Of a stretch of DNA of 64,000 nucleotides, positions 1,296 through 26,969 are shown piece by piece. The position numbers and the translations under genes are program-made. This DNA is from Medakamo hakoo (taxonomy: Eukaryota; Chlorophyta; Trebouxiophyceae; Coccomyxaceae). The notes below the pieces were generated by a model, which did no database searches, was not told the DNA's origin, and worked only from the letters and a program-made list of their open reading frames with translations. Positions within the stretch are counted from its first letter, which is position 1. Every line of letters starts with the position of its first letter. The stretch is taken from NCBI GenBank assembly GCA_026636295.1, contig CP089452.1, positions 186,001 to 250,000 on the forward strand. The letters are read 5' to 3'.

Positions 1296-3138
1296 TCACT
1301 CCAGCCCCCGCCCCTCCACACTGACGCGCGACCCCCGCGCCGGGCCCGCCCGGCCCCGCTTGGCTAGGGCATCCAGTGCTTTCTCCACTTTTGTTTTGGC
1401 GTTCCCGCCGCCGCCGCCGCCGCCGCCGAACAGCGCGCCCGCCGCGACCGTGGTCGCGCCCAGCCCGGCGTCCGGCTGGCGCACGAAATCCAGGCGCGCC
1501 TGCGTGGGAGGCAGCGCACGGCGCCTGAAGCCGCGGTCGCCAGGGTTCAGGCCCGCCGCCGCGTCTGCGGCCGCCTGCTTGGCGGCCGCGTCGGCCGCGA
1601 CCCGCGCCGCGCGCGCGGCGAGCGCGGCCTCCGCGCGCGCCGCCCGCGCCGCGTCCTCCCCCTCCACGTCCCGGTGCTTCTCCCACACAGGCCGGGCCCA
1701 GGCCGTGACCAGGGCCCGCGCCAGCCGCGTTTCCGTGGGCGACGCCCCCGGCACGCGGGACAGGAGCATGACGGCCTTGCCGACGCCCGACTGGACGAGC
1801 TGCACGCGCCGGTCCGGGTCGGCCGCGTCGACGTTGAGGGTCGTCAGCGCGCGCAGGACGGCTTCGCGGACGCGGGCGGGCGGGAGGACCAGGGGGCCAC
1901 CGCCGTCGCCGTCGCCGCCGTCGCCGCCGCGCCGCCCGCCCTCCTTGGGCGCCGCCTTGGCCGGCTCCAGCCAGGTTTTCAGCAGGCCCAGCACGCCGTT
2001 GTTCAGGTACCACTCCTGCGTCTTGGCCGACGCCATTTGGGCCTCCACCGCCGGCGCCAGGCGCAGGCGGTGGACGGCGGGGCGGCCGTCCTTGGCGGCT
2101 TGGAGGTCGTCCTCGGCCGCGGCTTCCATGCGGGCCAGGAAGTCGGACGCGGCCGTGAGTTCGGCGGACGTCAGCCCGCCGCGCCCGCCGCGCCCGCGCC
2201 GGCCGCCGCCTTTCTTGCCGCCCTTGAACAGGGCTTCGAATTCCGCGTCTTCCTCCATGCCCGTGGACGGCGTGGGCGAGCCGCCGCGGTCGCCCCCGCC
2301 GTCCGAGTAGTACCCCGCCGCCGGCTCCGCGCCCTCGTCGTCGATGAACGCGTCGTCCTCGGCCGTGCGCGGCGCGACGTCCGGCTCGTCTTCCGAGGCG
2401 GACCCGCCCTCGTCGTCGCCGTCCGGGCGGGGTGGCCGAGCCTGCGGTTCCTCGGCCGCTGGTTTGGGCTCGCGCCGAGGGCGCCGGGGCGGTTCGGGCG
2501 CGGGCGCCTGCTTCTTCTTCTTTTTCTTCTTGGGCGCGGCGGCGTCGGCCGACCCTGGCGCGGGCACCGGCAGCCCGGCCGCCAGGGCCGCCGCCGCGGC
2601 TTTGGCCTCACGCTTGCGCCGGGCCTTTTCAGCTTTGCGCCGCGCCTTTTCGTCGGCCGAGTCGGCCTCGGAATCGGCGCCGGCGTCGCTGCCGGGCGTG
2701 CGGGCACGCTTCTGGGGCGGGCGGGCGGCGCCGCCGTCGTCGCGGCCGTCTCCACCCGCGTCCTCCGCCGCCGCTTCGGCTTCCGCCCGCTTCCGCGCGG
2801 CCAGCTGGGCCAGGCGGGCCTTCATGTCCAGGGCTGGCGGGGGTGAGGCGGCAGGAGGGTCGGCGGGTGGCGGGGCCGCGGGCGCGGCCTGAGATTGGTG
2901 TGTGGGTTTTCGGTGCGGTGTGTTGAGAGGGCCAGGGTGGTTGAGAGAGCAGGCTGTGCGCGTGCGTGTGGCGCACACGCGGTCCCGCCTGGTGCGGTCA
3001 TAAGCGTGGGAGGGCAGGGGATCGCGGCGCGGCCGTGCGGGGAGAGAGCGCGGTGCGAGCGCTGGCAATGGAAAGCGGCCGCACAAAAAAACGCCGCCAG
3101 CGCGACGGCAAAGATAAACCCACCTCGCCGTCCGACAT
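1296..3138 (-). CDS. IWS1: IWS1/SPN1, transcription elongation factor
   Basis: Exon 1 (3138-3124) encodes only MSDGE. A 235-nt intron separates it from exon 2 (2888-1296), giving about 535 residues. The N-terminal half is charged and disordered, with Lys/Arg runs and acidic blocks. From about residue 255 to 410 comes the conserved IWS1 core, a TFIIS N-terminal-like helical bundle, with recognisable signatures such as the segment WYLNNGVLGLLKTWLEP. The end, VSVEGRGLE, resembles the conserved end of plant IWS1 proteins. IWS1 binds Spt6 and RNA polymerase II and acts in elongation and mRNA export in the nucleus. The first exon was chosen because its ATG sits in a good context and its donor joins in frame. 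An in-frame Met at 2825 is an alternative start. Confidence 0.87.
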
Positions 3139-3668
3139 GGTGGCGAGAGCCTGGTGCTGGCCTGAGGCCGCTGGGGGTGGGAACGCGGACCGCGGGGTTT
3201 TGAGCGGGGCGTGCGAGAGGAGGCACCGCCCCGTGTTTGCAGAGTGAACGCCGCACAGACCAAAAGCTCGGATGGATGGATGGATGGACGGGGGGACGGC
3301 ATGGAAAAAGGCGGCGCGGCCCGGTCTAACAAACCCAAAAATCAGGGGCGTACAAGGGGGTGGCGGTGCGTGCAGCACGAACCAAGACCGAGGCGAGGGC
3401 GCGGGCGGGAGGACGGGCACCGGAGGGCGCGGGTGGAGGCGGGGTGGGGGTGGCACGCCCACCCCCGCCGCCGCCGCCGCTACCCTCTCCCCCGTGCGGG
3501 GCCATCCACCCGCCCCACCCTCGCTCCAGTGCGCCGGGCACGCACGCACACGACCCCGCCCTTGCACACCCCGCCCAACAAATCAAAACCTCCAGGGGGG
3601 ACGGAATGCAAAAAACAAAAAAAAGAAAACGGCCAAACCAAAAATGGAAGAAAAATCTCGCGGGGCTC
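3139..3668. other. Intergenic, IWS1 to Mpv17-family gene
   Basis: This 530-nt gap holds the 5' region of IWS1 and the 3' end of the next minus-strand gene. It contains a short GGAT tandem (about 3272-3288) and A-rich runs near 3600-3655, but no convincing gene. Confidence 0.5.
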
Positions 3669-5210
3669 TCACGCGGGCCCGCCCACGCTGCCCTCTCCAC
3701 CGCCGACCACGCCTTCCGGCAGCTCGCACGACGGCGGCACGGGCGGCGGCAGCAGCGACGCCACTCCGTCCGCGCCGTCGCCGCCTTCCTCGGCCGCCGC
3801 CACCCACACCTCGGCCGGGGCGGAGGCTGCCCCCGCCGCGGCGGCCGCGTCGGCCGCGACGGCCGCGCGGCCGACGCCCGCCGCCCGGCGCGCCGCCGCC
3901 GCCCGCCGCGTGTCCGCGTACGCGCCCAGGGCGGTGACCCAGCCCAGCTCCGCCAGGGCCGCGAAGGCGACGCGGTGGGGCAGGGGGACGCACCCAAAGG
4001 TCACCAGGCCGACCGCCGGCCAGACCCGCCACCCCGCCCGCAGCACGTCCCACCACCCGTTGGCCACGGCCGCGCCCACGCCGCGCGGGCCGCCGGCGCC
4101 GCCGCGCAGGGCGGCCAGGGCGCCCAGGTACGCCGCCGTCCAGGCGCCCGCGAAGAGCGTCTGGTCGACGCCCACCTTGAAGAGCAGCGCCCACCACGCG
4201 TCGCCGCCCTGGAAGCCGGGCGTGACGTACACGAACCGGTCCAGCCCCTCGTAGAACGCGCCCGCGGCGGGGGCCCAGAGCGCGGCGCCCAGGAGCGCGG
4301 ACCGCCCCGTTCTGAAGGCGTCGACGTCCGTCAGGCCCCGGCCCTCAAAGGCTTGGGCGGTCGCGTCGCCCAGCAGGTAGGTCAGCCCCGCGAGCGCCGC
4401 GTTGAACGCGCCCGGGTGGGCGGACAGCGCGGCGGAGTAGGCGGCCCACGCCGCAGACGGCGCGGACAGCAGGTCGACGAGGGGCGACGCGCCGGGCGGG
4501 GCGGCCGCCGCGGCGGCGGACGCGGTGGCCGCGACGCCGGCCAGGGGGCCGCCCTCACCCGACAAGCTCGCAAACAGCCCCGCGCCGGCCACGACGGCCG
4601 CGGCGGCGAGGACGGACGCGTTGGCGGCGAAGGACAGGGCGCGCAGTTCGGCGGGCCCGTCGGCCAGCCAGCGCAGGAGCAGCGGCCGGCCGCCGTGCCA
4701 GGTCGCCCGCTCGTCGTCGTCGTCTTCGTCGTCCGCGCCCGCGCGCTCGAGCGCGGGCGAGGTGGCAGCGCGCGCCGCGGCCGTGGTGTCGCCCGTCGGC
4801 GCGCGCACAGGCGGCTCAGGCGCCGGGCGCCCGGCCGTGAACCCGGTGTCCTCGCTCACCAACGGTGCCAGGACACCGGGCACAGCCGCCGCCGCGGCCG
4901 CGCCCGCGGCGACGGCGCTCCTGGCCGGCGGGCCGGCGACCGGCGCAGAAATGGGTGTGGGCGGGAAGGGACTGGTGGACGGCGCACCGCTCCCACCCGC
5001 GTCCGCGGGCCCACCCGTCCGCGTGGCCACGTCCGCGCCTCGCGGGGAGGCTGCGCGCGGGGGACGGAGGAGGCCGCGAGTGCGTGCGCGGCCGCGCAGG
5101 GCAGAGGGTGAGGGCGACGCGGGCGTGGCCGCGCACCGCCCGGAAAAGCCCGCGGGAGCTGCACGTGCCGCGGCCCCCGCCGCCCGCGGCGAGGGCGCGG
5201 GAGGGCGCAT
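3669..5210 (-). CDS. Mpv17/PMP22-family membrane protein, probably organelle targeted
   Basis: A single-exon frame of 513 residues. The first 200 residues are Ala/Pro/Arg rich and look like a plastid or mitochondrial targeting extension with a spacer. The Mpv17/PMP22 core lies at about residues 256-435: AALSAHPGAFNAALAGLTY, then LLGDATAQAFEG, a central FYEGLDRF, and the family hallmark WRVWPAVGLVTFGCVPL followed by the Arg and Trp of the last helix. These proteins have about four membrane segments and sit in peroxisomal, mitochondrial or plastid membranes, where they may form small channels. The core is normal but the whole protein is about twice the usual length because of the extensions. 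The start at 5210 faces the PDHB gene across a 248-bp divergent gap. Confidence 0.8.
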   Translation of the reverse strand: MRPPAPSPRAAGAAARAAPAGFSGRCAATPASPSPSALRGRARTRGLLRPPRAASPRGADVATRTGGPADAGGSGAPSTSPFPPTPISAPVAGPPARSAVAAGAAAAAAVPGVLAPLVSEDTGFTAGRPAPEPPVRAPTGDTTAAARAATSPALERAGADDEDDDDERATWHGGRPLLLRWLADGPAELRALSFAANASVLAAAAVVAGAGLFASLSGEGGPLAGVAATASAAAAAAPPGASPLVDLLSAPSAAWAAYSAALSAHPGAFNAALAGLTYLLGDATAQAFEGRGLTDVDAFRTGRSALLGAALWAPAAGAFYEGLDRFVYVTPGFQGGDAWWALLFKVGVDQTLFAGAWTAAYLGALAALRGGAGGPRGVGAAVANGWWDVLRAGWRVWPAVGLVTFGCVPLPHRVAFAALAELGWVTALGAYADTRRAAAARRAAGVGRAAVAADAAAAAGAASAPAEVWVAAAEEGGDGADGVASLLPPPVPPSCELPEGVVGGGEGSVGGPA

Positions 5211-5458: not shown

Positions 5459-7311
5459 ATGGCTGCCATGCACCTGCGGGCGTCCATGATCGCCGGGCCC
5501 GCGCCCCGCGTGGCCGGGCGGGCGACGGGTGAGTTTTTGTGGCGGGGCAGAGGAGGCCAGTGCTTTTTTTGTGCGGGCGGCGGCGAGGGAGAGACGGCGT
5601 GTGGCGGGTCTGGCGCCCGGCGCCTGGGCGTCCGCCCCCGCGCATTGTGGACTGGGATGTCTGGGCCATGCGCACGCGCGTCGTCTCCGGCCCTCGTCAC
5701 CGGCTGCCCGTGCAAACACGCCGCCGGAGCTGCGTGAGGGCGCGCGGCCCGCCGCTGGCCGCTCGCGCGCGGCGGGGCGAGGCCGGGCCGGGCTGGCTGG
5801 GCCGGGCTTTCGCCTGGCCGCGGTGCAACCCGCATTGGGCATGGCCCGGTGGTGGCTTGACTTTGGTCTGGGCGTGGAGGGGGTGAGTGTTCCCTCTGCA
5901 CGCCCACGGCCCGCCCCCCCGACCGAAATGCGGGCGGCGGGGCGTGCCTGCGGGCCGTTCGCGGCCTCTCGCGGGGCCGCTCGATCGGGCGTGGGCGGGC
6001 GGGCTGGCAATCGCCGGCCCACCGGGACGGCGTGCTTTTCATCGCACACGCAATCAGAGCGCCTTGGCTGCCCGTTAAGAGTGGAGTTTAGGGAGCTGGG
6101 AAGCGAAGGTCATCGGACCTGGGGCGGGCGAAAGGGCGAGGGGGAGGGCGCGCCGCGGCGCGCGGCCGCGCTCGCGGGCCCCCTCCACGGCCGCGCTTCC
6201 CCTCTTTCCCATCCCCGCCCACCCACCACCCCCACGTCCCCCACTCCACCCCCACACAGCCCGCGCCGCCGCTCCCACCCCCCGCCGCGCCTCCGCGTCC
6301 GGCCCCGCCCGCGCCGAGCCCAAGAAAGAAAAGATGATGTGGGAGGCCCTGCGCGAGGCGGTGGACGAGGAGATGGAGCGCGACCCGACCGTCTGCCTCA
6401 TGGGCGAGGACGTCGGCCACTACGGCGGCTCGTACAAGGTCACGTACGACCTGCACAAGAAGTACGGGGACATGCGCCTGCTGGACACGCCCATCTGCGA
6501 GAACGGGTTCATGGGCATGGGCATCGGCGCGGCCATGACGGGTCTGCGCGTCGTCATCGAGGGCATGAACATGGGCTTCCTGCTGCTCGCGTACAACCAG
6601 ATCTCCAACAACGCGGGCATGCTGCACTACACGTCCGGCGGCCAGTTCAAGGTGCCCGTCGTCATCCGGGGGCCGGGCGGCGTCGGCCGCCAGCTGGGCG
6701 CCGAGCACTCGCAGCGCCTGGAATCGTACTTCCAGTCCATCCCGGGCGTGCAGCTGGTCGCGTGCTCGACGGTGGCGAACGCGAAAGGCCTGTTGAAGGC
6801 GGCCATCCGGTCGGACAACCCCGTCATTTTCTTCGAGCACGTCCTGCTGTACAACGTCAAGGGCGAGACGGTGCCGGGCGACTACTGCCAGCCCCTGGAA
6901 CGGGCGGAGCTGGTGCGGGAGGGCACCGACGTCTCCATTTTCTGCTACTCGCGCATGCGGTACGTCGTCATGCAGGCCGTCGCCGCGCTGGAGGCCCAGG
7001 GCTACAACCCGGAGGTCATCGACCTCATCTCGCTGAAGCCGTTCGACATGGAGACGATCGCCCGGTCCGTCAAGAAGACGCGCAAGGCCATCATCGTGGA
7101 GGAGTGCATGAAGACCGGGGGGATCGGCGCGTCCCTGTCCGCCCAGATCTCGGAGTCGCTGTTCGACGACCTGGACCACCAGGTCGTCCGCCTGTCGTCC
7201 CAGGACGTGCCGACCGCGTACGCGCACGAGCTGGAGGCGGCGACGATCGTGCAGCCCGAGCAAGTGGTGGCGGCGGTGCAGAAGGTGTGCGGGTCGCTCG
7301 TGGCGGCTTGA
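5459..7311 (+). CDS. PDHB: Pyruvate dehydrogenase E1 component subunit beta, plastid type
   Basis: Exon 1 (5459-5528) and exon 2 (6260-7311) encode 373 residues. The first 48 or so residues are Ala/Arg/Ser rich with almost no acidic residues, as expected for a plastid transit peptide. The mature part begins near [15 protein letters not shown]. The E1 beta signature [15 protein letters not shown] and the later [17 protein letters not shown] are intact, and the protein ends at the expected place. With E1 alpha this subunit forms the thiamine diphosphate-dependent component that makes acetyl-CoA from pyruvate for fatty acid synthesis. Sequence style is that of plastid rather than mitochondrial E1 beta. 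Intron 1 is 731 nt and joins in phase 1. A long GT microsatellite follows the stop. Confidence 0.95.
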
Positions 7312-7372
7312 AGAGGTGTGGGGGGGGGAGAGCGATGGAGCTGAGAGATGGAGCGCGGGGACGAGAGCGAGA

Positions 7373-7431
<59 letters not shown>

Positions 7432-7638
7432 AAACCGACAGCGGCCGGGGCGATGAGACCGCCTCATTCTTTTTTCATTCGATGGAGGGGAGGTTCAGCT
7501 AGCTGGAGCACGGCAGCCACTCCGTGTCTCTCGCGCTCGGGGCGCGCGCCAAAAAAAAAAAAAAAAAGCCGCGCCGCGCGGAAGGAGGGGAAGCCTCCTC
7601 TCCCTCCTTCCCACCCCGCCCGCGGAACGACCCTCGCA
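7312..7638. other. Intergenic, PDHB to sphingosine kinase
   Basis: This 327-nt gap holds the PDHB 3' end, a GT microsatellite (7377-7429), an A tract near 7551-7567 and the leader of the next gene. An apparent upstream ATG frame that runs through the repeat is not credible as the gene start. Confidence 0.5.
7377..7429. repeat. GT dinucleotide microsatellite
   Basis: About 26 uninterrupted GT units in the 3' flank of PDHB. It creates a spurious poly-Cys/Val open frame. Confidence 0.95.
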
Positions 7639-9270
7639 ATGTCCACCGCCAGCGGCGCGACGGCCGCACCCCTGCTCGCCGCGTTCAGCTCGGCCGAGTC
7701 GGGCGGAATCGGCGCGCCAGCGCTCGCGACCCTGCCCCTCACGGCCGGCTGGGCCGTCCTTCACGCCGACGGCGGCGCCTCCTTCCTTCCTTCCGGCCCG
7801 GCCACCCGCGGCTGCTGTGGGCTGCGGTCATCGTCTCGACCCTGGCACGCCCCCGCGTCCACGCTCGTCGGCGTGGAAGAGGTCGACGGCGGCGGGTTTC
7901 GCTTTGTCGCCGCCCGGCCCGTCGGCCGCGACCTCACGTCCCTGGGCGGCCGGCGCCGGGCCGTCGACAAAAGCCCGGTGTTGACGCCCTCATCCTCACC
8001 AGCCGACTCCTTCATGGCGTCCGTCCGGTCCGCTGTGACGCGGGACGGGTGGGCGCTGCGCCCGCTGGCCGTGCTGGCCGTCCTCAACCCTGCGAGTGGC
8101 CCGAGGCGGAGAGCGTCGCGCGTGTGGCAGAGGACGGTCGCCCCTCTCCTGGCCGCGGCGGGGATTCGCTCCACCGCCATCGTGACGACCCACCCGGGCC
8201 ACGCCGCTTCTTTAGCCGAAACCGCGTCGCCCTCAACCTACGGCGCCCTGGCCGGCGTCGGCGGGGATGGGACGGCCGCGGAACTGGTGGACGGGTTGAT
8301 GCGCCGCCCGGACTGGAAGGCGGCGGCCGCCGCCCTGCCCCTCTCCCAAATCCCTGCGGGATCCGGCAATGCCCTCGCCGCCAACGCGGGCACGCCCGGC
8401 TGTGCTGTGGCCGCGGCGTTCGCGTTGGTGAAAGGCGTCGCGGCGCCGCTCGACGTCGGCGTCGCGGTCGAAGGGTGCACTGCCCGCCGCACGCACGCCT
8501 TCTTGTCGCTGTCCACGGGTTTAGTCGCCAATGCGGACGTGGGCACGGACCATTTACGGTGCCTGGGTCCCATTAGGTTTACACTCGGCGCGGTGTGGGT
8601 GAGTGTTTTGGGGCGGGGTGCGCGCGCGCAAGGGTGGGAGGGTGGTTGAGAAAAACGCGTCTCTCACGCCACCGCCCCCACACCCCGCTCACAGGAAGCC
8701 TTGCGCCGCCGCGCCCACCCCATGGACGTGTGGATCGTGCCGCCGGATGAGGCCCCCCCCGAAGACACGCCGGCCGCCACCCCCGCCAAGCCAGGCCCGC
8801 CCGCGCCGCTGGTTGAAGCGCTCGCCGCGTCGGGCGCGCTGGACGAGCCTTTGCCGCCGTCGTCGTCGTCCACCCCCGCCCTCCCGCCACTGCCGAGTCC
8901 CTGGCGCCACCTGCCCACGGCTGGCGGCGTCTCCATGCTGGTGGCGTGCAACCTGCCGCTGCTCGACGCGTCGACCCACATGGCGCCGGGCGCCGGGCGG
9001 GCGAGCGGGTGCCTGGAAGTCGTGTCCGCGCCCGGCGGGCTGTCCTGGGGCACGGCGCTGTCGCTGTTGGTGGGCGTTGAATCCGGCGCGCACGTCAAGC
9101 ACTGCGCCGTCACCTGCACGCCCGCGGTGGCTGTGCTCATCCGCCCGCTCGACGGCGGCAAGTCGACGTCGCTGGCCCTGGACGGAGAGCGGGTGGGCAG
9201 GGCGGGCGAGGCGGCTGCCTGCGCCTTGGAGTGCGTGCCGGGCGCGGCGCGCGTGATTGTGTTGAAGTGA
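7639..9270 (+). CDS. SPHK: Sphingosine (long-chain base) kinase
   Basis: Two exons (7639-8598 and 8695-9270, joined in phase 0) encode 511 residues. The diacylglycerol-kinase catalytic fold starts near residue 142 with AVLNPASGP. The nucleotide loop GGDGT is at about 208-212, followed by IPAGSGNALAANAG at 238-251, which is the signature of sphingosine kinases rather than of diacylglycerol kinases. The region FLSLSTGLVANADVGTDHLR and the following RFTLGAVW match the C5 region of the family. The enzyme would phosphorylate sphingoid bases to signalling lipids. The first 120 residues have no clear domain, and a Pro/Ala-rich insert follows the intron. The ATG at 7639 was chosen over an upstream frame that begins inside a microsatellite. 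Confidence 0.88.
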
Positions 9271-12844: not shown

Positions 12845-14572
12845 TTACTGCAGCCGCCGCAACAACCGCCGCCTGCAGCCATCGCTGTTTTCCGTCGCCG
12901 TCGCATTGCCCGTCGTCTGCAGCCGGTACAGGTCCACGCGCACCGTCTCGTCCACCAGGTGCTTGATCGGGTTGTAGCACACCTTGCTCGGCTCGTACAG
13001 GAACCGTGTGGGTTCGACGGACAGGCCTTGCGCCTGGTGGTTGTAGCCCATGGGATTGATTTCCAGGCCGATGGGCGAGACGTCGAGGCCCTTTTTGATG
13101 GTGGTGGAGGGTGTGGGTGGACGGGAGGTGAGAGAGGGGGTGAGAGCGGGTGCGGTGCGCTGGGCGGGCGGGCGTCTTTTTAAACCGCGCGCGCGCGCGC
13201 CCGGCCACACACCCTGCCCCACGCTTCGCACCTGGGGCTGTACGTTGACGCCGATCGGTCCTGGGCGGTGTGAGAGGAGGAGGGAGGGAGGGATGGGGAG
13301 TGAGGACGGAGCAGGGGAAAAAGCCACGGTTTTGAGGCGACGAGACATCTCTCTCCCCATCGCATCGCGGCCGCCGCACGGCGTAGGGACCACGTCTGCT
13401 TACCAATGTAGCTGTGGAAGGTTTGGGGGGAGTTTGGTGGGCGAGTGGTGGGGAGGGGCGGCGCGTGAGTGCGTGCGTGTGTGGGTGGTGTGGGTTGGTG
13501 TCGCAGGCGGGTCGGGCCGCCGCCTTCCCACGCGCGCTCAACCCCCCCTCTCAACAATACACAACAAAACGCAACAGCAAGCCTGGCTGAAAATTGAAGA
13601 GCTCGGGATTGAGGTTGGCGCCGACCGGCTGTATAAAGATCAGGGCGGGCTGTATGTTCACGCCTGTGCCATGGTGTGGCGGGAAAGGACGGGGGGAAAC
13701 GGACGTCAGAGCTCCCTCTCTCTCTCTCTCTCCCCACCTCCCGCGCTTGAAGAAAAACCACGCACGCACGCACGCACGCACCCTGGAAGTACGCGGTGAA
13801 GCCAACCGGGCTGATGTTGATGAGGTTGGGCACGAAGTTGAGCCCCGTCATCTCGCCCCACGCCCCGACGGGCGTCTCGCTGAGCACGCAGGGCGTGAAC
13901 TCTATGAAATTGTGGGTGACGATCTTGCCCGTCACATACGTCGGCGTTGTTTCGGCTGCCCGGCGCATGGCTGCCGCGCCGGCTTTGACCTTGGCTTTCA
14001 AAGCCGACTTGCCGTCCAACGCGTCCAGGAAACTGGAGAAGCCGGGGCGCGCCGACGCCGCGTCGCGCGCAAAGACGGTGTCGGCCAGGTGGAGGCGGGG
14101 GAACAGGTCCTCCCCGCCGTCCGAGGCGCGGGCCAGCAGGCCGTGCGTGGTGAGCATCAGGCGCCCCAGCGCGTCGGTCGCCGCACCAGCATCGCCGCCC
14201 GCCTTCGTCAGGAGGACGCGGGCCACGACGGACGCCCAGTTGCGGTAGTCGGACGGCAGGCCGCCCAGGTCGAGCGGGTCTTCCTGGATGGTCAACTTCG
14301 GCGGGGACGACGACGGGGGGCCGGGGCCGGCGCCGCCCAACGGGCCGGGCGGGCCGGTCGCCTCGCACGTGCAGCAGCGGCAGGCGGTCAGGGCGGCGGC
14401 CGCCGTCAGGGCGAGGGCCGTGCGGCCCAGCCTGGAAGTGGGTGTCGTGAGGAGGAGGGAGGGTTGGTTGGGCTGGGCTCAGCTGTCTGTCTCGAAAAAC
14501 GCGCGGGCAAACCTAGCCGGGCGGCGTTAGCCGGGGCCTGTCCGCCCACTCTCACTCGTAGACACACCTCAT
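12845..14572 (-). CDS. Heptad-repeat secreted protein A
   Basis: I do not recognise this family. Six exons (14572-14568, 14431-13782, 13663-13576, 13411-13404, 13260-13232, 13090-12845) give 341 residues. Exon 1 has 5 coding nt and exon 4 only 8. The start MRLGRTALALTAAAALTAC is a signal peptide, followed by a short Cys-rich and Pro/Gly linker. Residues of about 55-185 form an all-alpha-looking domain shared with genes B and C (LPSDYRNWASV, then EDLFPRLHLAD and FTPCVLSET). Then come about 15 contiguous seven-residue repeats such as GVNIQPA, LIFIQPV and GVNVQPQ, and a unique Lys/Asp-rich tail. This is the most diverged of the three minus-strand copies. All junctions agree in phase, and each restores the repeat register. 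The donor after exon 3 is GTTGCG, which is unusual. Confidence 0.72.
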
Positions 14573-15465
14573 CCCTGGACACGTGAGCGTCCACAAGCGG
14601 CTTTGAGCGGTTTAGACGAGGGGTAGAGTGCCTGCCAAGCCAGCGGACGCGGGGGCGGCGAATTGAGTTTGGTTCTCACCGCCGCCGCCATTCGCCACGG
14701 CGCAGTCGGAAAAACGCCGCCTGCCGGGAGCTCGTGTGGGCTTTTCTTTCAAACGCCCGCGTTGTGTGGCTGGTGTGGACGAGCCAGACGGCCTTTTTGT
14801 GTGGACGGAGGGAGGGAGAGGGGTGGACGCGCCGTGTGGGGTGCGAGAGAGAGAGAGCGAGAGAGACGCGAGAGTGTGAGAGAGCGGCGGGCGGCGGGCG
14901 CAGGGCCCAACCTCTCCCAACCTTTTGCTCCCGGACTCGCCGCCGGGCATCACTCACCGCGCGACGCCCATCCAAGCCTTCCCTTTCTCTGTTTTCTCTC
15001 TTTGCCACCAGGACAGCGCCAAGACTTTTGAACCGAGAGATGGCTTTTTTCATTGCCTTACACGAGAGGAAAGAAAAACTCCACCTCTCATCGTAGAAAA
15101 AACGCAAAGAGGGGGGGTGTCACAGCAGTGTGTGCACGCACACAAGGGTAAATGCATTAGAAAAGAGCGCACGGCACATTCTTCGTTGACTTTTCTTGGC
15201 CGGCGCTCGTGACAGAAAAAGGAGAGACGCACTCCGTTTTTTTTTGATGGGTTGGAGAAAAGGGGAGAAAAAAGGGGAGCGCCGGTAATTCGTCCTTCAG
15301 TGTTTTGTTTTTTGGGCGCGCGAGAAATTTTCCTTGTCGCTCCACGCCCGCCGCTTGGGCGGGCGTGGAGCTAAAGGCGGGTCATCCCCGCTCCGCCCCG
15401 CACACACTCCCCACGCACGGCCGACATGAGCAAGAAACAAGCTTGAAGAAAAAACAAGCTTGTGT
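14573..15465. other. Intergenic, heptad-repeat genes A and B
   Basis: This 893-nt gap carries the leader of gene A and the 3' region of gene B. It is less GC rich than its surroundings between about 15050 and 15330 (A/T-rich 3' flank). A TTACA (TGTAA on the minus strand) lies at 15058-15062. No gene is seen. Confidence 0.5.
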
Positions 15466-17590
15466 CTACAAGCCGCCGCCGCCGGTTTGCGCAACGCCGC
15501 CGCTCGACCCTTCCACATTGTCGTCCGTCGTCGTCAGGTCGTCCCCAACGGGCGCGTACACCTGGGATAGGGGTGGGCGGGAGGGCGGAAAGTCGTTCGT
15601 GAGTCAAAAGCCAAGGGCGGCCCCGCGTGCGCTTCGTCTCTCTCTCCGCCCTCACATCCGCCCTCCTCCCTCGCCACCGCTCTCCCCCAAAAACGTACCG
15701 GTCCTTTTTGCGGGTTGTACAACACCTTGGCCGGCCCGTACACCGTCTTGGCCGGCGAGTACAGGTAGCCTTGCGGCTGGACGTTGACCCCGACGGGCGC
15801 GACGGCGAAGTGCGCGGCTGTTGGTTTGGGTGGGGAGGAGGTGGGGAGGCGTGAGAGTTTTTCCGCGGCGGCCGCGTTTTGTTTGGGAAGGCTGGCCCTG
15901 CGATGGACGCGAGGGCATCCTGCTGGCGCCAGCAAGGCCAGGGCCTACGTGCCGTCGACGACAGGCGCTCCCGACCACCGCCGCCGCCAGGCGGGCGTGG
16001 CGGGCAGGCGGCTTGTGTCGCGCGCACCGCGTCCCGCGCGCGCTCCCGCGTCGCCACCCACGCCCCACGCGTGCGAAACTCACCCTGGAAGTTGACGCCT
16101 GTTTTGATGTTGGAAGAGGGGGAGTGTTGGTGTGTGTGTGTGTGTGTGTGTGTGCGACCCGTGAGTTATTTTTTTTGCGAGAGCACAGCGCGCGCGCCAA
16201 CCCCCCCCCCCCCCGTGACAGGTCCGCGACGCGTCGCCGCCGCCGCCCGGGCCGCTTCCTCCCCCGCACTCCTTTTCCAAACGGACCTTGAGGTTGCACG
16301 TTGACGCCGATAGGGCCTGGATGATGGTTTGGAAAGGGGAAACGCGCAAAAAAATCGTGAATGAGAAAACCCGACCACCGCGGCGCCCATTTTTTTCTCC
16401 TGCTCCCTCCGACGGGAACCCTCCAACCCCGCCTCCCGCCGCGCCCGCTACCACACACAGCGCGCCCGCCCTCCTCGACCCCTTACCGAAATACATCAGG
16501 ATTGGCTGGATGTTGACTCCTTGAGGGTTCAATTGCGCGCCGATCGGGCCGACCCAGATCAGCTGCGGGAAAATGTTGATGCCTTGGAAGAAGCCGGCGA
16601 AGCCGGTCGGCGCGATGGTGAGCAGGTTGGGCGCAAACGACAGGCCGGTCAAGGACGCGGAGACGCCGGTCTGAGTGGGTGTGTGGTGTGTGTACGGGCG
16701 TGCGTGAGGAGAGGGAACGGGTTTCGCAGGTTCCTGAGCTCCGTCCCGGGCGCGCGCGCACGCGCGCGCCCGGGACGACGCAGCAGTATTGCGCCATGCT
16801 TCTTCAACTCACCGGCGTTTCCGACAGCACGCACGGCGCAAAGTTCATGAACGCGCTGCTCGCCGCGAACTTGACGACGTCCGTCTTGGGTTTGGCGCCC
16901 TTGACTTTGCCGGCCACTTGCGAGACGATGCTCTCCAGCTCGTGGCCAAAGCCGTGCGCGTCGGCCGCGAAGACCGGGTCGGCCAGGTGCAGGCGGGGGA
17001 AGATGTCTTCACCGTTGGCGACCTTGGCCAGGTGGCCGTGCGCGGCCAGCATGACCCGGCCCAGCGCGTCGATGGCCGCGTCTTCGGACCCCTCCTTTTT
17101 CAGGAGGACCCGGCCCATGACGGACGCCCAGTTCCGGTAGTCGGAGGGGAGGTCGTTCGAGATGTCGAGCGGGTCTTCCATGAGGTTGAGTTTTGGGATG
17201 TCGGCGGCTTGGGCGGCCGCGACGGAGGCCGCGGCCAGGGCGGCGGCGAGGAGGGTGCTGTTTTGTTTTGTTGTTTTTGAGGACGGGGGGTGGTGAGATA
17301 AGGGAGCCGCGGGCGGGTAGTGGGCGTGCGCGGGGCCAACTGCTTTTTGCAACGCGACGGCGCCCGCCGGGCGGCGCTCGCCGATTCTCCGCGCCGCGCC
17401 ATGATCAGACTGCACTTGTCTCCAGGGCAGCTGGGTGCAGGTGGCGTGTGCCGGGATGCACTTCCCACGCCGGCGGCCAGCCCTAAAGAAGAAGAGAGAA
17501 CGCGCATGCCCGCGGCTTGCACATGCGCGGAGGAACGCACAAACCAGGCAGCGTGCCTCGCCGCATCTCAACTCACCGCATGAACGGCAT
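15466..17590 (-). CDS. Heptad-repeat secreted protein B
   Basis: I do not recognise this family. Seven exons (17590-17577, 17257-16813, 16670-16487, 16316-16287, 16098-16084, 15817-15699, 15561-15466) give 300 residues. A signal peptide (MPFMRTLLAAALAAASVAAA) is followed by the N-terminal domain shared with A and C (LPSDYRNWASVMGRVLLKKE, then NGEDIFPRLHLADPVFA), about 15 seven-residue repeats (GINIFPQ, LIWVGPI, GVNVQPQ, HFAVAPV) and an acidic then Gly-rich tail starting VYAPVGDDLTTTDD. Exons 4 and 5 have just 30 and 15 nt. Every splice phase is consistent, and the repeat register is kept only with these tiny exons included. Intron 2 holds a perfect 17-bp-arm GC palindrome. The repeat pattern aligns one to one with gene C. 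Confidence 0.78.
16742..16777. repeat. Perfect GC palindrome in intron 2 of gene B
   Basis: Two 17-bp arms (16742-16758 and 16761-16777) are exact reverse complements with a 2-nt loop, all in G and C apart from three A/T positions. It lies wholly inside the intron 16671-16812 and would form a very stable RNA or DNA hairpin. Confidence 0.9.
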
Positions 17591-18455
17591 CGTAACTGCA
17601 GCAGTTAGACAAGCCTGGCACCGGGCGGGAGAGGATGAACAAGCGGGGAGTGAGTGGTGGGAGCGCGCTTTCTTTTTTTGGCGTGGCGGCGTGTGCGCGG
17701 CACAAGCGCGCGGTGGGTGGCCAAAAGCGCGACTCGAGGGCCACGGGACGCCGCCTTTGGCGTCCAGCGGTGCGCTCGATCAAGTAGCGCACCGAGAGGG
17801 GAGTGTGTGCAGCGGTGCAGGGGGGGTTGCGTGGAGGTGGCTGTGGAGGGGCTAGCAGTGCGTGCACTCGCGCCTAGCCTTTCTGCCCGTCCAAGGAAAC
17901 GTAGAAGTGAAGGTGCGTCGTGCGCTGCGGCGACAGCCATGGTGATAGAGACCTTAATTTCTTTTTTTCATCATGTAAGCGCGTTTCAACTGGACCTGGG
18001 ACGCCGCCGCGCGACAAACGAATAAAGCCCGGCTTTTTCGTTTCTGCCGCGGGCGGGCCACCAGAGGGCCCACGCCGTCACTTTTTTTTTCACAAACACA
18101 CTCTCCCTCAAAACGGGCTGGGTCTCTCAACCAGGGCACGCGGCGCAGGGGGTTTTTGTGCGCGTGAGACGAGGCTGGCGCCCGGACGCCGGAGGCGTGG
18201 AGGATCGGGGTGGCCCTCCTCCCACGCCTGCTGCTCGTCTGGCGGTCCGCCTCTTGGCCCCACGCACCCTCTTCACCGCTGCGCCTGGGAAGAAACCTCC
18301 CCGTCTCTCACCCCCCTCCACCCACCCAAAAAAGACAGGCAAATCGCGACCTCCCCTTCCTTGAAATTCTAGGGGAGCATCACTTCACTTGCTGGAGTCT
18401 CAGCAGCATTTTGTTGATGGTTGATAGCTTATTGCTCGTACGACGCCTGACCCGC
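17591..18455. other. Intergenic, heptad-repeat genes B and C
   Basis: This 865-nt gap contains the promoter side of gene B and the 3' flank of gene C. No open frame here resembles a protein, and no RNA gene was recognised. Confidence 0.5.
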
Positions 18456-20766
18456 TCACAGGCCGCCGCCGCCGGCCGCCTGCGTGTCGGTGGTGGGCGC
18501 GGCCGTGTTGTCGTCCATCGTGGTGAGGTCGTCGCCGACGGGAGCGTAGACGGGGCCCTTCTGGGGGTTGTACAGGGTCTTGACGGGCGCGTAGACCAGC
18601 TTGGCGGGCGCGACCAGCTTGCCTGTGAAAGTTGAAGAGAAAAGGGGGGAGAGCGTGGGGTGTGAGTGGGTTCCGGGCGTCGCGAGAGTGGCAGCGGCCG
18701 CGCAGCGCGTGTTTTGCCTTTCTCTTTGCGCGCGTTGCATTGCAGCACAGTCAGTGACGAAATCCGCCGCCCACAAAACTTACCCTGCGGCTGCACGTTC
18801 TTGCCAACGGGCGCGACGGCTGTTGTGAAGGAGGGGAGGGGAAGGGGTGGCGGGACGGACGTGAGAGAAGAAACGCGCCGCGTCGCGTCGAGGTCGGCGC
18901 GCGCCGACCTCGGCAACCTCGGCAAACAAAAACTCGGCAAACCCCGCCGCCGCCGTCGTTTCCACTGTTTTCGGCTCGGCTTTTCCGTCAACTTGCCAAT
19001 CTTGATGGGCTGCACGTTGAGACCCTGGGGCTGGACGTTGGCACCGATGGGACCTGTGGAAAGTTTGGTGGAGGGAGGAGGAGTGGGGTGGGCGTGAGTG
19101 CGTGAGTGATGACAGAAAATGGGAGGTCGCCCTTTCCGCGCCAGTCGTGCGGTGGCGCGGCGCGACCTCCTGCCGCCAAGACCGCCACGCCGCCACTACA
19201 ACGCGCGCCCCGTCCCCCACAAACGCACCCAGGTAGATGAGAATGGGCTGGATGTTCAAGCCTGGCGAATAGAGCAAGAGAAAAAGAAGAGGAGTGGGGC
19301 GCGTGAGCGCGGCGGAAGTGAAAAGGAGGAGAGGGTGAGCGCGGTTGCGCGGGCGGGAGGGGTTTGGAGATGGTGTGCGACGTACCCTGCGGCTGGACGT
19401 TAACACCAATCTGTTGTGCGGGTGGTCGGAAGGCGGGGAAGGACGGGCGTGAGAAGTTTGGTGCAGCGCTGCGACAGCTCACGAGTTTGTCTCTCTAAAC
19501 TAACCCCCGCCGCCGCCGGCCCCGTCCCGCGCTTGGAAAAGAACGTACCGGCGTCACCCAGATGAGCTGGGGGAAGATGTTCACGCCCTGGATGGCACCG
19601 AACTGTTGGTGGAGGGGTGGATGGAGAGGGGAGCGGGCGCGTCGGTGAGAGGAGGGTTGAGCCGTCGGGAAAAAAAAATCCGCCGTCGGCATTCAACCCC
19701 TGTTTTCCGCCAGCGCATCGCATTTCTTTAAAACGTACGAAGCCGGTCGGGAAGAAAGAGATCAGGTTCGGGGCGAAGTTCAGGCCTGTCAGCGAGGCGG
19801 CCGCGCCGACCTGTGTGCGTGAGGAGGGGAGGGAGGGTGGAGGACGGGTGAGGAGGGTGGGTGGGGTGGGTGGCTGGGTCGGAGCGGTGTTGTTACGACC
19901 GATACAAACCCCTTTTCCGACGGCAATACTGTCACTTACTCCGCTCTCAGACAGCACGCAGGGCGCGTAGTTGAAGAACGTCTTAGAAGAAGCGAACTTC
20001 GTGACCGCCTTGGTGGGCATTTTGCCCTTGACCTGTGCGCGTGGTTTTGTGGGGGGCGGTGGGTGAGCGAGAGGGTGGAGGAGAGGAGAGGAGGGATGGC
20101 GGGCGCCGAGCGCGTGTTTGCCAAACAGACACGTACCTTGCCGGCGACCTTGCCGACGAGGGCCTCCAGCTCCTCTCCCAGGCCGTGCGACTCGTGGGCG
20201 AAGATCGGGTCGGTCAGGTGGAAGCGCGGGAACAGGTCCTCGCCGTTGGCAACCTTGGCCAGGTGGCCGTGGGCGGCCAGCATGACGCGGCCCAGGGCGT
20301 CGACGGCCGCCTCCTCGGAGCCTTCCTTCTTCATGAGGACCTGGGACATGACGGACGCCCAGTTGCGGTAGTCGTTGGGCAGCTCGTCCGAGATGTCGAG
20401 CGGGTCGGTGATCAGGTTGATCTTTTCGGCGACGGCGCCGGTGGCGCAGGCGACGACGGCCAGGGCGGCCGCGCTGTTTTGGGGGGGGAAGGTGGACGTG
20501 GACGGCGTGGCGAGGGTGTGAGGGTGGGGGTGTGGGACGCCCGGCAGCGCGGCCCGGGCGGGCCCGGCCTCTCGGCCGAGAAAAAAAAGGGGGAGCAAGG
20601 CGTGAGGGAGAGGGGAGGGCAAAGGCGCGCGGCGGCGGTCGCGCTGTTTTTGGCCACAGCGCATGCAGGCCGCTTTTTAAGAGCACCACCGCCCCTGCCG
20701 AAGCCTCCCGCCGCCCCGCGCCGCCTGCCAGCAAACGCACCGACGCAGGAAGGTACCGAAAGCCAT
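18456..20766 (-). CDS. Heptad-repeat secreted protein C
   Basis: I do not recognise this family. Ten exons (20766-20741, 20473-20137, 20032-19940, 19810-19739, 19602-19549, 19410-19386, 19261-19229, 19053-18997, 18819-18784, 18622-18456) give 299 residues. A signal peptide (MAFGTFLRRAAALAVVACAT) leads into the shared N-terminal domain (ELPNDYRNWASVMSQVLMKK, then NGEDLFPRFHLTDPIFA) and about 15 seven-residue repeats (GVNIFPQ, LIWVTPI, GVNVQPQ, GANVQPQ, GKNVQPQ, KLVYAPV). The tail VYAPVGDDLTTMDD ends in AAGGGGL. Exons in the repeat part have 25, 33, 57 and 36 nt; the last three are phase-1 symmetric and together span exactly six repeats. The intron after the 57-nt exon uses a GCAAGT donor. Gene D lies divergently beyond a 1.2-kb gap. 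Confidence 0.78.
18820..18996 (-). other. GC-AG intron of heptad-repeat gene C
   Basis: The donor reads GCAAGT, the classic GC-type donor, and the acceptor ends CAACAG. Only this junction joins the repeat KIAVAPV in frame. The intron also holds a perfect 24-bp palindrome at 18889-18912. Confidence 0.7.
18889..18912. repeat. Perfect 24-bp palindrome in gene C intron
   Basis: Two 12-bp arms (18889-18900 and 18901-18912) are exact reverse complements with no loop. The motif CTCGGCAA then recurs three times in 18910-18942. Confidence 0.88.
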
Positions 20767-21955
20767 GGTTGGTGTGTGCTCTTGGCGGCAGATGGAGTCC
20801 TGAGGTGAGGGGAGGGAGCAACGTGAGGCGCGGACTGTGGCGCGTGAGTCTGTGTCCGAGGAAGGCGCGCACGTCCAACAGGGGCCGTCCGCCACGCCGC
20901 TCTTCGTCAGAGATGGGACTCCTGGTCAGGCACAACAATATTCAAGACTGGTGGAGGACGGCCAAGGACGGCCAGCCTGGCTGGGCGCACCGCAATGTGC
21001 CGCCGGCGCGGACCAACCACCACACGGAAGCAGCGCGAAACGCTCGCGCCAACAGATTGGCTTGCCGCCGTCGGACCGCGCCCGCGTCGATGCCGGAGAG
21101 GGCCCGAGACTCCGTGCAGCAGAGTCGGCCAGGACCGCGGTGCGACGCCGAGGGCGCGAAGGGCCAGGCGCGGCCAGGCGGGGCGCCTGTGTCCTTGTCC
21201 CTCCATTCGCACCTTGGAGCAAAAGCGAGTGTGCGCGCGTCGGAGTGAAAAAACAAAGAAGGGTATTGCTCCGCCAAGGGGGGCCGACCACACCCGCACG
21301 TGCGGCGTGCACGCACGTGCACCTGGGCCTCCACACCACGCCCCCCCGCTGCCCTCCACCTCACTCCCCGCACCCCGAATCGAGGCGCCGCCTCCCCCGC
21401 CCCCGCCCCCGCGCCGGGCCGCAGACCACGCCCACCGCTAGAAAAACAGCGGCCGCAGGAAGGCTGGCCCTTTTCCGGACTGTTGGCCGCGAGGACGGAG
21501 CGGCAGGGCTGGACGGGTGCGAGGTGACAGGGTAGTAGGGTCAGTAGGGTCCTCGGCGGTGTTGAGAGGGAGTGCGTCGTGCCCGGAGGGGTGGTCCCCC
21601 ACAGGGCGTGAGGGCGTGACGTCCCCACGATGAAAAAAGAGGGGCCAAGGTTGTTTCGCCCTCCCTCACTCTGCTATTGAAGAAACACAGGTCCGTCCCT
21701 CGCCGTGCTCCGCTCCCGGTCTCCGGGCCCGCCCAGACCTTCCGCCGCTCCTGGCGGCCGCATGTCGAGCCGCTGGACTTGAGCTACGGCACACCGCCGC
21801 GGCGGCAGGGCGGGCGGAGGCGGGCGAGGCCCCGCCGTGCGCTGGCCGCATGCCCTCGCAGCGCCATTGACTCGGCACCTAACTCTCACTTTTGGCTTTC
21901 CCACGCCCTCCCACGCGCAGGCCCTTCATCACACTCAGTGCATAGAGCCTTCACC
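20767..21955. promoter_or_regulatory. Long divergent region between heptad-repeat genes C and D
   Basis: This 1189-bp interval is the longest gene-free gap in the window and lies between two divergent family members. It may carry shared control elements. Open frames here are shadows without a recognisable protein. A short GTAGGGTCAGTAGGGT-type repeat lies near 21532-21552. Confidence 0.4.
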
Positions 21956-23784
21956 ATGTTCAAGTCGTTCGTTTGGTGAGTCAGATATGCGCGGGCAGGG
22001 GCAAGAAGGTTTTTGCGGCGCGGTCTTGGAAAATGAGACGAGCGCGGCGCCTGCGCGGCGTGTGCTCGCTCGCTGTTTTTGTGGCGCCCGCCGCGGGGGG
22101 TGCGCGGCCAGCTTCCAGCCCGCGCTCTAGCCAGACACAAAGTCCATGATTGAAGCGGTCACATGCGTGCGCTTTTGGAGAAAAAGAACCTGTTCGCGTG
22201 CTTACGGGCGCCGCGACGAATGGAACTCAATCTCGACTAGTCGGTTGGTCGCCGAAACACGCGGCCTGTTGCTGCCTGCTGCCTCAAGCGCACAAGGCTG
22301 GCCCTCGCCCCAGTCCTCGCCCCAGTCCTCGCCGCCGCACCGCACGTGGCCCGCCGCCACGGCGCCGCCCGCCCCCCGCTGCCCGCACTCAGAGCCCTCT
22401 CTCCTGGACGCAGCCAACCGATGACACTCTCACCGCACCGCCCCCCCCCCCCACCACCACCACCACCCGCGACACCACGACCACAGCGCGGCCGTCCTGG
22501 CCGCCGCCGCCGGCACCGCCGCGGCCGCTCCCCTGCCCTTCTCCTCCCCCGTCGAAGGCACGGCCGGCAAGGAAGCCGACTACGGCCACTTTGCCGAGAT
22601 GCTGGCGTCCGTCATGATGCTGCGCGAGGGCGGCGTCGACAAGGCGCTGGAGGCCGTGCCCATGCTGCACGACACGACGCACGCGTACATCAAGACGATG
22701 TCCCTGGCGGAGAAGCACCCGGAATGGTTCAAGAAGAACGGGACCAAGGCGGCGGACTGGGGCGGCCTCAAGGACTCGGACATCGACCTGCTGAAGGCCA
22801 TCAAGGACGCCAACGCGACGGAGCCGGACAAGGACGACCCGCTCTTCAAGCTGGGCGAGAAGATCGAGGCCAAGCTGGGCGGCCACGAGAAGAACCACAC
22901 CAAGGACTGGGAGACGGACAAGGTCGAGAAGTTTGAGAAGATGCTGCCCCAGGACAAGACGGACGACGACGCCGCGTTCCTGAAGGCCCTGAACGACAAG
23001 CTGGCCAAGTGAGTTTTTGTTCTTTGTGGGGAGGGTGTGGGTTTTTCGAAAAACACACATGCCCACCGCAACTGCTCCACGCACACCCTCTCATGCTTCC
23101 ACCACCACCCACCCACCCACCCCACCCCTTGCAGGTACAACATCGAGGTCACGCCCAAGTCCATCGGCGAGCCCAAGAAGTTCAACAACGGCGCCTCCCT
23201 GATCGTCAAGGCCCTGACCGGCATCTCCCTGTCCAAGACCGGCATCAACTTCGCGCCGTGCCTGGTGTCGTACGCGCCCGCCGGCGTGTCGGTCGGCGCC
23301 CAGCTGGTCAACATCATCCCGCAGGGCATCGGCTTCGCGCCGACCGGCGTGTCGTTCGCGGCCCAGGGTGTCAACATCCAGCCGGCCCTGGTCCTGGTCC
23401 AGCCCATCGGTGCCAACGTGCAGCCCCAGGGCATGCAGGTACGGAGGAGGTTGGGGGAGGCGTGTGCGTGAACCCCCCCCCGGCCATCCTCCCGCCCGCG
23501 CGCGCGCCGCCACCCACCCACCCACCCACCCACCCACCCCACCACCACCACCACCCCTCTCACTCCCGCCCCCTCAACTCCTCTCAAAAACACAGGTCGC
23601 TCCCTTCCTGATCGCCGTCTCCCCGCTGGGCGCCAACGTGCAGCCCCAGGGCGCGGCCATCTCCCCCGTCGGCACGTCCATCGCGCCCGTCGGCAAGGCC
23701 ATCGTCCCGCAGGGCAAGGTCTACGCGCCGGTCGACCGCGCGTACGCGCCCGTGGGCGTCAACCTGACCCCGCCCAAGGAGTAA
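21956..23784 (+). CDS. Heptad-repeat secreted protein D
   Basis: I do not recognise this family. Four exons (21956-21975, 22487-23008, 23135-23438, 23596-23784) give 344 residues. The start MFKSFVCAAVLAAAAGTAAA is a signal peptide. Residues of about 35-190 are charged and helical, with a weak match to the N-terminal domain of A-C (DYGHFAEMLASVMMLREGG against the DYRNWAS block). From about residue 220 to the end there are 18 uninterrupted seven-residue repeats, among them GINFAPC, GVNIQPA, GANVQPQ (twice), GTSIAPV and GKVYAPV, ending GVNLTPP plus KE. This is the cleanest array of the four and has no low-complexity tail. It is the only copy on the plus strand and has fewer, larger exons than A-C, which suggests an older split from them. 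Confidence 0.8.
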
Positions 23785-25491: not shown

Positions 25492-26969
25492 ATGTCGGCG
25501 GCTTTATTACTGCGCGCGGGCGCTCGCCTCCGCAGCGTGGCCCGCCTGGCGCCGGTCGCCGCGCCCGCTGCGCTCAGTCTGGGCGCCACGCGCAGCGCGT
25601 CCTCGCACGCCGAGAACACCAACACGTTCATCAAAGAGGTGCGAGGAGTTGGGGACTCGACCACCTGATTGGAGGCGTGCATGCATGCCCCCTCAGCGAC
25701 GGCGGAGCCGTCGTTTCCCACGCGCAATGCAGCCGCGAGGCGACGAGGCCCCCGCTGCTCAACCACTGCGCGCCCCGCGCCCTCACCCCACCACCCTCAC
25801 CCTCCCCTCCCCCTCCCCCCTCCCCTCCCCCTCGCCACCCCTGGCCTCCCCCCAGGCCCTCCTCCAACTGGAGTACCCGGACCGCCTGCAACGCCTGCTG
25901 CTCACCCCCCAGCGCGAAGTCTTGGTCGAGCTGGTCATCACCCGGGACGGCGGCGAGATCGAGACGTTCAACGCGTACAGGGTCCAGCACGACGACTCGC
26001 GCGGCCCCTTCAAGGGCGGGCTGCGCTACCACCCGGCCGTCGACTTGGACGACGTCCGCTCCCTGGCCTCGCTCATGACCTGGAAGACAGCGGTCATGGA
26101 CATCCCGTTCGGCGGCGCCAAGGGCGGCATCACCCTGGACCCGGCCCGCCTGTCGGAGCGCGAGCTGGAGCGCGTGACGCGAAAGCTGGTCCAGGCCATC
26201 AAAGACGTCATCGGCCCGCACGTCGACATCCCCGCCCCCGACATGAACACGGGCGCGCGCGAGATGGCGTGGATCATGGACGAGTACGGCAAGTACGCCG
26301 GCTTCGCGCCCGGCATCGTGACGGGCAAACCCGTCCACCTGCACGGCTCGCTCGGGCGCGAGGCCGCGACGGGGCGGGGCACGGTCATCGCCACGCGCGA
26401 GCTGCTGAAAGCCGCGGGCGCGGGCGGGCTGGCGGGCAAGACCGTCGCCATCCAGGGCTTTGGCAATGTGGGCGCGTGGGCGGCCGAGCTGTTTGCGGAG
26501 GAAGGCGCGGCGGTCGTCGCGGTGTCCGACGCGTTTGGCGCCGTCCGGGCGAGCGGCGACGGCGGGGCGCCCGGCCTGGACGTGCCGGCCCTGCGCGCGC
26601 ACGTGGCGGGCGGAGGCGCCCTGGCCGACTTCGCCGGCGGGACGGCCTTCCCGCCCGGCGACGTCCTGGCCACGCCCTGCGACGTCCTGGTGCCGGCCGC
26701 GATCGGCGGCGTGCTGGGCGAGGCGGAGGCGGGGCGGGTGGCGGCGAAGTTTGTGGTGGAGGCCGCCAACGCGCCCACCACGCCCGCGGGGGATGCGGTG
26801 CTGCGGCAGCGCGGCATTCCTGTGCTGCCGGACATCCTGACCAACGGCGGCGGCGTGACGGTGTCGTTCTTTGAATGGTGAGAGAGGGGTTTTTTTTTTC
26901 TTGGGTGGAGCAAGGGAACCCTCGCCCGCCCCCCGCCCCCCTTTCTCACCCGCTCCCTCCCCACGCCCC

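Follow-up and report, generated by a model that had tools for sequence, protein, structure and literature searches.

Four genes in the 64,000-nucleotide window analysed here (bases 186001-250000 of contig 15 of the Medakamo hakoo genome) encode proteins with a repeat of 18 seven-residue units, ordered as six coils of three distinct heptads. Together with three paralogues found elsewhere in the genome (E, F and G), these four (A to D) make up the core members of a family, and the repeat is six coils of 21 residues in 7/7 of them, aligned over 127 columns with zero gaps. We propose that it forms a three-sided β-solenoid with seven residues per face, which may act as a structural rod of the cell wall or coat, and that its divergent gene pairs would be co-expressed. 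We give this reading as a whole about an even chance.

The cluster spans 12845..23784, as a first-pass annotation had delimited it, with the stop codon of A ending at 12845 and that of D at 23784. A, B and C on the minus strand and D on the plus strand can all be spliced without internal stops, and their models are established at the level of sequence. Gene A (341 aa, 12845..14572) has exons 14572-14568, 14431-13782, 13663-13576, 13411-13404, 13260-13232 and 13090-12845. Gene B (300 aa, 15466..17590) has exons 17590-17577, 17257-16813, 16670-16487, 16316-16287, 16098-16084, 15817-15699 and 15561-15466. Gene C (299 aa, 18456..20766) is the most divided, with exons 20766-20741, 20473-20137, 20032-19940, 19810-19739, 19602-19549, 19410-19386, 19261-19229, 19053-18997, 18819-18784 and 18622-18456. 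Gene D (344 aa, 21956..23784) has exons 21956-21975, 22487-23008, 23135-23438 and 23596-23784.

The chosen splice donors conform to GTRNGT in 16/23 cases, and the rest include GTTGCG in A, GTCCGT in B and a GC donor, GCAAGT, in C. The heptad register of A needs one extra piece between two exons, which is supplied by an 8-nt micro-exon, CTACATTG (13404-13411), preceded by AG and followed by GT. This micro-exon with its upstream GTTGCG donor, the first exon of A (ATGAG) and the GC donor of C are the weakest points of the models. Several junctions have more than one frame-keeping option, from which the best fit to the donor consensus and the heptad register was chosen; because the models were picked partly by register, the register is not independent of them at the ambiguous junctions. 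D needs a single junction inside its repeat.

The repeat domains extend over 12968..13911 in A, 15711..16854 in B and 18564..19981 in C (all minus strand, split by introns), and over 23238..23772 in D (plus strand, one intron), with coordinates derived by hand from the exon table. The annotation had counted 15-18 repeats per protein, which we correct to 18 heptads, or six coils, in each of A to D. Its observation that A, B and C align repeat by repeat is borne out by the gap-free alignment. So is the unbroken register, as the repeat prolines fall in one register of seven in 13/13 cases in A, 13/15 in B, 14/16 in C and 16/16 in D, and likewise in 14/16 in E and 16/16 in F.

The BLOSUM autocorrelation of A to F at lag 7 has z of 7.0 to 11.1 against 300 shuffles. 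Lags 7 and 14 are both high, and lag 21 exceeds them in 6/6 proteins with z of 9.8 to 12.8. The period-7/21 regularity is far beyond chance. Units spaced by a multiple of three are more alike than others, with a difference as large arising in 1/500 permutations. Units at the same position score a mean BLOSUM of 2.61 between the six paralogues, against 1.00 between proteins and 1.05 within proteins for units at different positions. Such a fixed, gap-free count with position-wise conservation marks a folded domain that is both old and fixed, as opposed to a low-complexity tract in expansion.

The three faces differ by column, as [Q/T]GxNxxP, xLIxVxP and [VIM]GxNVQP (15 heptads of A to F). Of the seven-residue consensus first described, the proline stands, closing 106/126 heptads of A to G at position 7, but it is not in every heptad; coils 1 and 2 lack it in their third unit in 7/7 core members. 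Strongly hydrophobic residues occupy position 3 in 92/126 units and position 5 in 107/126, and are also present at positions 4 (33/126) and 6 (20/126). Asn or Gln is found at position 4 in 51/126 units and at position 6 in 43/126, and Gly at position 2 in 70/126. Charged residues are few, with 46/882 in the whole repeat and 12/252 at positions 4 and 6, which presumably face outward (all A to G). Tyr or Trp takes position 4 of the xLIxVxP face in 7/30 units of A to F. Eight aligned members, and also G, retain a Pro-Cys close to the beginning of the domain.

In line with the signal peptides claimed earlier, the proteins begin with secretory-type leaders, whose best hydrophobic 11-mer has a KD value of 1.9-2.7 and whose first 20 residues contain 0 acidic residues (6/6). 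Ala is abundant in the leaders, which have one or two basic residues, and an A-x-A-like site follows the hydrophobic core by eye in B to F, A being less clear. They resemble ER signal peptides, and secretion is likely. The N-terminal domain is probably helical; AlphaFold2 placed helices in that of B (131 aa, four-sequence alignment) at low confidence (pLDDT 50.6, pTM 0.42), with the best prediction around residues 21-64. Paralogue E has Met- and His-rich stretches resembling MDGMDGMMDGMGHDHM ahead of the repeat and again in its tail, which might bind metal.

All of A to D have tiny first exons that end in phase 2, and by our own reading E and F start in the same way, as expected of one ancestral leader intron. 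Introns cut the repeat differently among the paralogues. A, B and C have one position in common, in phase 1 and 54 residues beyond the anchor; B and C have another (-7, phase 0). A to D have 17 introns in or just before their repeats. Five of these, none of them in D, interrupt the 21-residue unit at an identical point, between Q and G at offset 1 modulo 21 (A 22 and 64, B 64, C 43 and 85), four in phase 1 and A 64 in phase 0. The other 12 do not have this placement. The five may stem from an ancestral one-coil exon or, equally, from mere insertion at the CAG/G that the motif creates.

A six-frame search of the genome (15,638,232 bases in 16 contigs) found at least nine family genes, at least five of them outside the window; the search scored the best candidates alone, making the family size a lower bound. 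E (plus strand) and F (minus) lie at 58.3-62.1 kb of contig 2, and G at 433.3-435.4 kb of contig 15. The more divergent H (minus) and I (plus) lie at 658.4-664.3 kb of contig 11 and have 11 heptads each, with the same three-face order as the core members. The chlorophyll a/b-binding family PF00504 has 23 matches in this genome, which marks the host as an alga. The published assembly is described as having 18 contigs, 2 of them organellar, with 15,811,321 bp and a GC content of 72.7% (PMC9871001).

C and D are arranged head-to-head with their start codons spaced 1189 bases apart, and the stretch between them (20767..21955, unstranded) may serve both as a promoter. E and F are also head-to-head, with a spacing of 248 bases. 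H and I are divergently oriented as well. A tree built on the A-to-G repeats separates D and F (support 0.999) from the other five, A, B, C, E and G, among which the inner branches have supports of 0.899, 0.358 and 0. Thus C/D and E/F are head-to-head pairs that each contain one member per subfamily, and we infer an ancestral pairing whose two partners are produced jointly.

Comparison of A-B, A-C and B-C gave pN below pS for both the whole protein and the repeat (0.216 vs 0.574 for the B-C repeat). For C-D, pN was not below pS over the whole protein (0.457 vs 0.440), and the difference was small in the repeat (0.379 vs 0.498). All these figures are rough because synonymous change is large.

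The repeat had been called new-looking, and the libraries searched agree. A to F found no credible match in Pfam (best E 0.077), NCBIfam (best E 0.024) or PHROGs (best E 0.24), and three pieces of H and I gave nothing in Pfam at E 0.1. Among PDB sequences, the single match to query A1 up to E 1 was PrsA (E 0.073), and the repeat profile had three matches up to E 10, the best being short tail fibre protein gp12 (E 0.31); all were dismissed. Pattern searches, two each, matched 19 and 40 stretches in viral contigs and 41 and 104 in prokaryote genomes, with 0 confirmed in either. A plasmid collection gave zero matches, and one match in a phage collection (E 0.1, 26.7% identity) was dismissed. Among the titles and abstract openings listed by literature searches on the repeat, on 21-residue or triangular solenoids and on algal wall proteins, none describes the repeat. 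The novelty is limited to the scope of Pfam, NCBIfam, PHROGs, PDB and the prokaryotic, viral, phage and plasmid collections. As general eukaryotic collections lie outside that scope, we would expect other green algae to have relatives, and a mention of the family may exist elsewhere.

The period is as long as a coil and divides into three faces, as seen in the lag-21 signal and the modulo-3 likeness of units, and the counts for A to G give a hydrophobic alternation, presumably inward, with mainly polar or small residues at the presumed outward positions. Hydrophobic residues at 3 and 5, Asn or Gln at 4 and 6, Gly at 2 and Pro at 7 fit a short strand with a Pro-x-Gly corner, three per coil. AlphaFold2 was run on exon 3 of D (101 aa, four-sequence alignment, repeat cut at the exon end), and the low-confidence model (pLDDT 31.7, pTM 0.13), in which strands of at least three residues are absent, is uninformative either way. 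Because this model of the repeat is unusable, the solenoid is argued from sequence alone.

On this reading, a core member starts with a signal-peptide-like leader and continues with an N-terminal domain that is probably helical, and a rod of six 21-residue coils forms its C-terminal part. The three faces of a coil would broadly follow [Q/T]-G-[LV]-N-[IV]-[QA]-P, x-L-[IL]-x-[VI]-x-P and [VIM]-G-[VA]-N-V-Q-P. Positions 3 and 5 would point inward as short β-strands, Asn and Gln at 4 and 6 would often be stacked outward, and most corners would be Pro-x-Gly, giving a three-sided β-solenoid. Within the cell wall or extracellular coat, the rod might be a stiff element that gives structure or contacts carbohydrate, and co-expression of the divergent gene pairs would provide two partner subunits. 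Medakamo hakoo cells are described as having thick walls (PMC9871001). The thick-walled host, the several paralogues, the rigid-looking rod and the few charges together favour a structural or polysaccharide-contacting coat protein; placing it in the wall itself is an extrapolation from the leaders and the wall-bearing host. The reading as a whole also draws on pN being below pS among A, B and C; the C-D comparison over the whole protein, the hydrophobic residues present at positions 4 and 6 and the mere 11 heptads of H and I count against it.

Both a β-solenoid and an elastin-like spiral had been suggested at first. The solenoid is favoured by the period of 21, the hydrophobic alternation at 3 and 5 and the fixed coils, and the spiral is disfavoured. 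A flexible elastin- or gliadin-like chain, disordered or wound into a β-spiral on Pro-Gly turns and lending elasticity or adhesion to the wall, would account for the frequent Pro at heptad ends and Gly at position 2, and for the structure predictor returning no fold for exon 3 of D. Elastin-like repeats, however, are of low complexity and vary in unit number; here 18 gap-free units are kept in 7/7 core members, conserved by position and not homogenised, with three ordered unit types and strongly hydrophobic positions 3 and 5, so this explanation appears quite unlikely. It also seems unlikely, if a little less so, that a β-solenoid or related parallel β fold is present for binding, as a carbohydrate-binding or adhesive surface protein or part of an enzyme and not as a structural rod. 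Known three-sided solenoids, such as those of the pectate-lyase type and some yeast wall adhesins, do bind or cut polysaccharides, and the Tyr or Trp residues on the xLIxVxP face would suit such contacts, but the scarcity of charge makes a catalytic cluster in the repeat unlikely.

Two further alternatives concern location and metal. The Ala-rich leaders, with few basic and no acidic residues, could be plastid transit peptides, which can be short in algae, and the proteins would then act in the plastid or thylakoid lumen. Yet the uninterrupted hydrophobic core in 6/6 leaders is more typical of ER signal peptides, and the A-x-A-like site comes next in most of them, which makes a plastid location improbable. 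That these are metal-related coat proteins, with copper bound by the Met/His stretches of E and the solenoid serving as scaffold, is hardly credible, since such stretches, present on both sides of the repeat in E, are absent by eye from A, B, C, D and G. An ice-binding role, also raised at first, is unsupported. Ice-binding solenoids display a flat face of regularly spaced Thr (T-x-T), and here Thr or Ser makes up just 36/252 residues of A to G at positions 4 and 6 (17/126 and 19/126), the two taken to point outward.

If the three-sided solenoid is correct, its code would be unusually exact, each face being one heptad and each coil three faces, and simple enough for design. It would also provide an initial way into the proteins that make up the coat or wall of ultrasmall algae. 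From the recurrent pairing of two subfamilies head-to-head, one would predict an assembly of two subunits, which is directly testable.

Among known systems, elastin-like and gliadin repeats share the Pro and Gly turns, and omega-gliadins even the seven-residue unit, but the repeat described here differs in its fixed unit number, three ordered unit types and hydrophobic alternation. The 14-residue head repeats of YadA type are likewise built on a multiple of seven; the present family differs in its period of 21, its eukaryotic host, its other N-terminal domain and the absence of a Pfam match. Pentapeptide solenoids, with five residues per face and four faces, resemble it in having a short exact unit and a fixed face length, and the annotation rightly set it apart from them, as the period of 7/21, not five, and the absent Pfam match (A to F) do not fit that identity. 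The same distinction holds for the hexapeptide repeats of LbetaH acyltransferases, whose faces are six residues long and whose coils are 18. Both have a strict short period, coils of three short faces and a single hydrophobic pattern for each face, whereas our family has seven residues per face, 21 per coil and mostly Pro-ended faces, and A to F lack a Pfam Hexapep match. The right-handed β-helix of pectate-lyase type comes close in coil length, about 21-22 residues, and in its Asn ladders, and some of its members are secreted or in walls. Its coils are irregular in length and sequence, unlike the 3 x 7 of every coil here; A to F gave no Pfam match to this type, and no PDB sequence match of worth was obtained. 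Wall adhesins of Candida glabrata are reported to have a β-helix fold (PMC8746771). The family may represent a new class of three-sided β-solenoid, which would combine an exact 3 x 7 code, with two inward residues on every face and, as a rule, a corner proline, with a fixed six-coil form, secretion, occurrence in one algal lineage and origin from head-to-head pairs of two subfamilies; we put the chance of this somewhat below even. As a structural kind, it would be a variant among three-sided solenoids and not a wholly new thing.

Five of the 17 introns that lie in or just before the repeat of the repeat-protein genes A to D fall at an identical place in the 21-residue unit, after Q and before G. 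All five are in the repeat regions of A, B and C, at offsets of 22, 43, 64 and 85.

In the window, an open frame downstream of gene D (25649-26881, +) matches glutamate dehydrogenase strongly in both of its domains (ELFV_dehydrog_N, E 9.6e-53). A separate open frame at 7348-8649 (+) has a diacylglycerol kinase catalytic domain (E 3.1e-22).

On L005, the stretch carrying the head-to-head paralogues E and F, the gene downstream of F (about 1985-4330, −) resembles, by eye, a secreted vanadium-haloperoxidase or PAP2-type enzyme, with FWRPITAIR and PEYPAGHPT-like motifs. The gene next after it looks like an LCAT-like gene. Gene E itself (about 6775-8860, +) has stretches rich in Met/His, both in its tail and ahead of the repeat, which recall copper-binding motifs.
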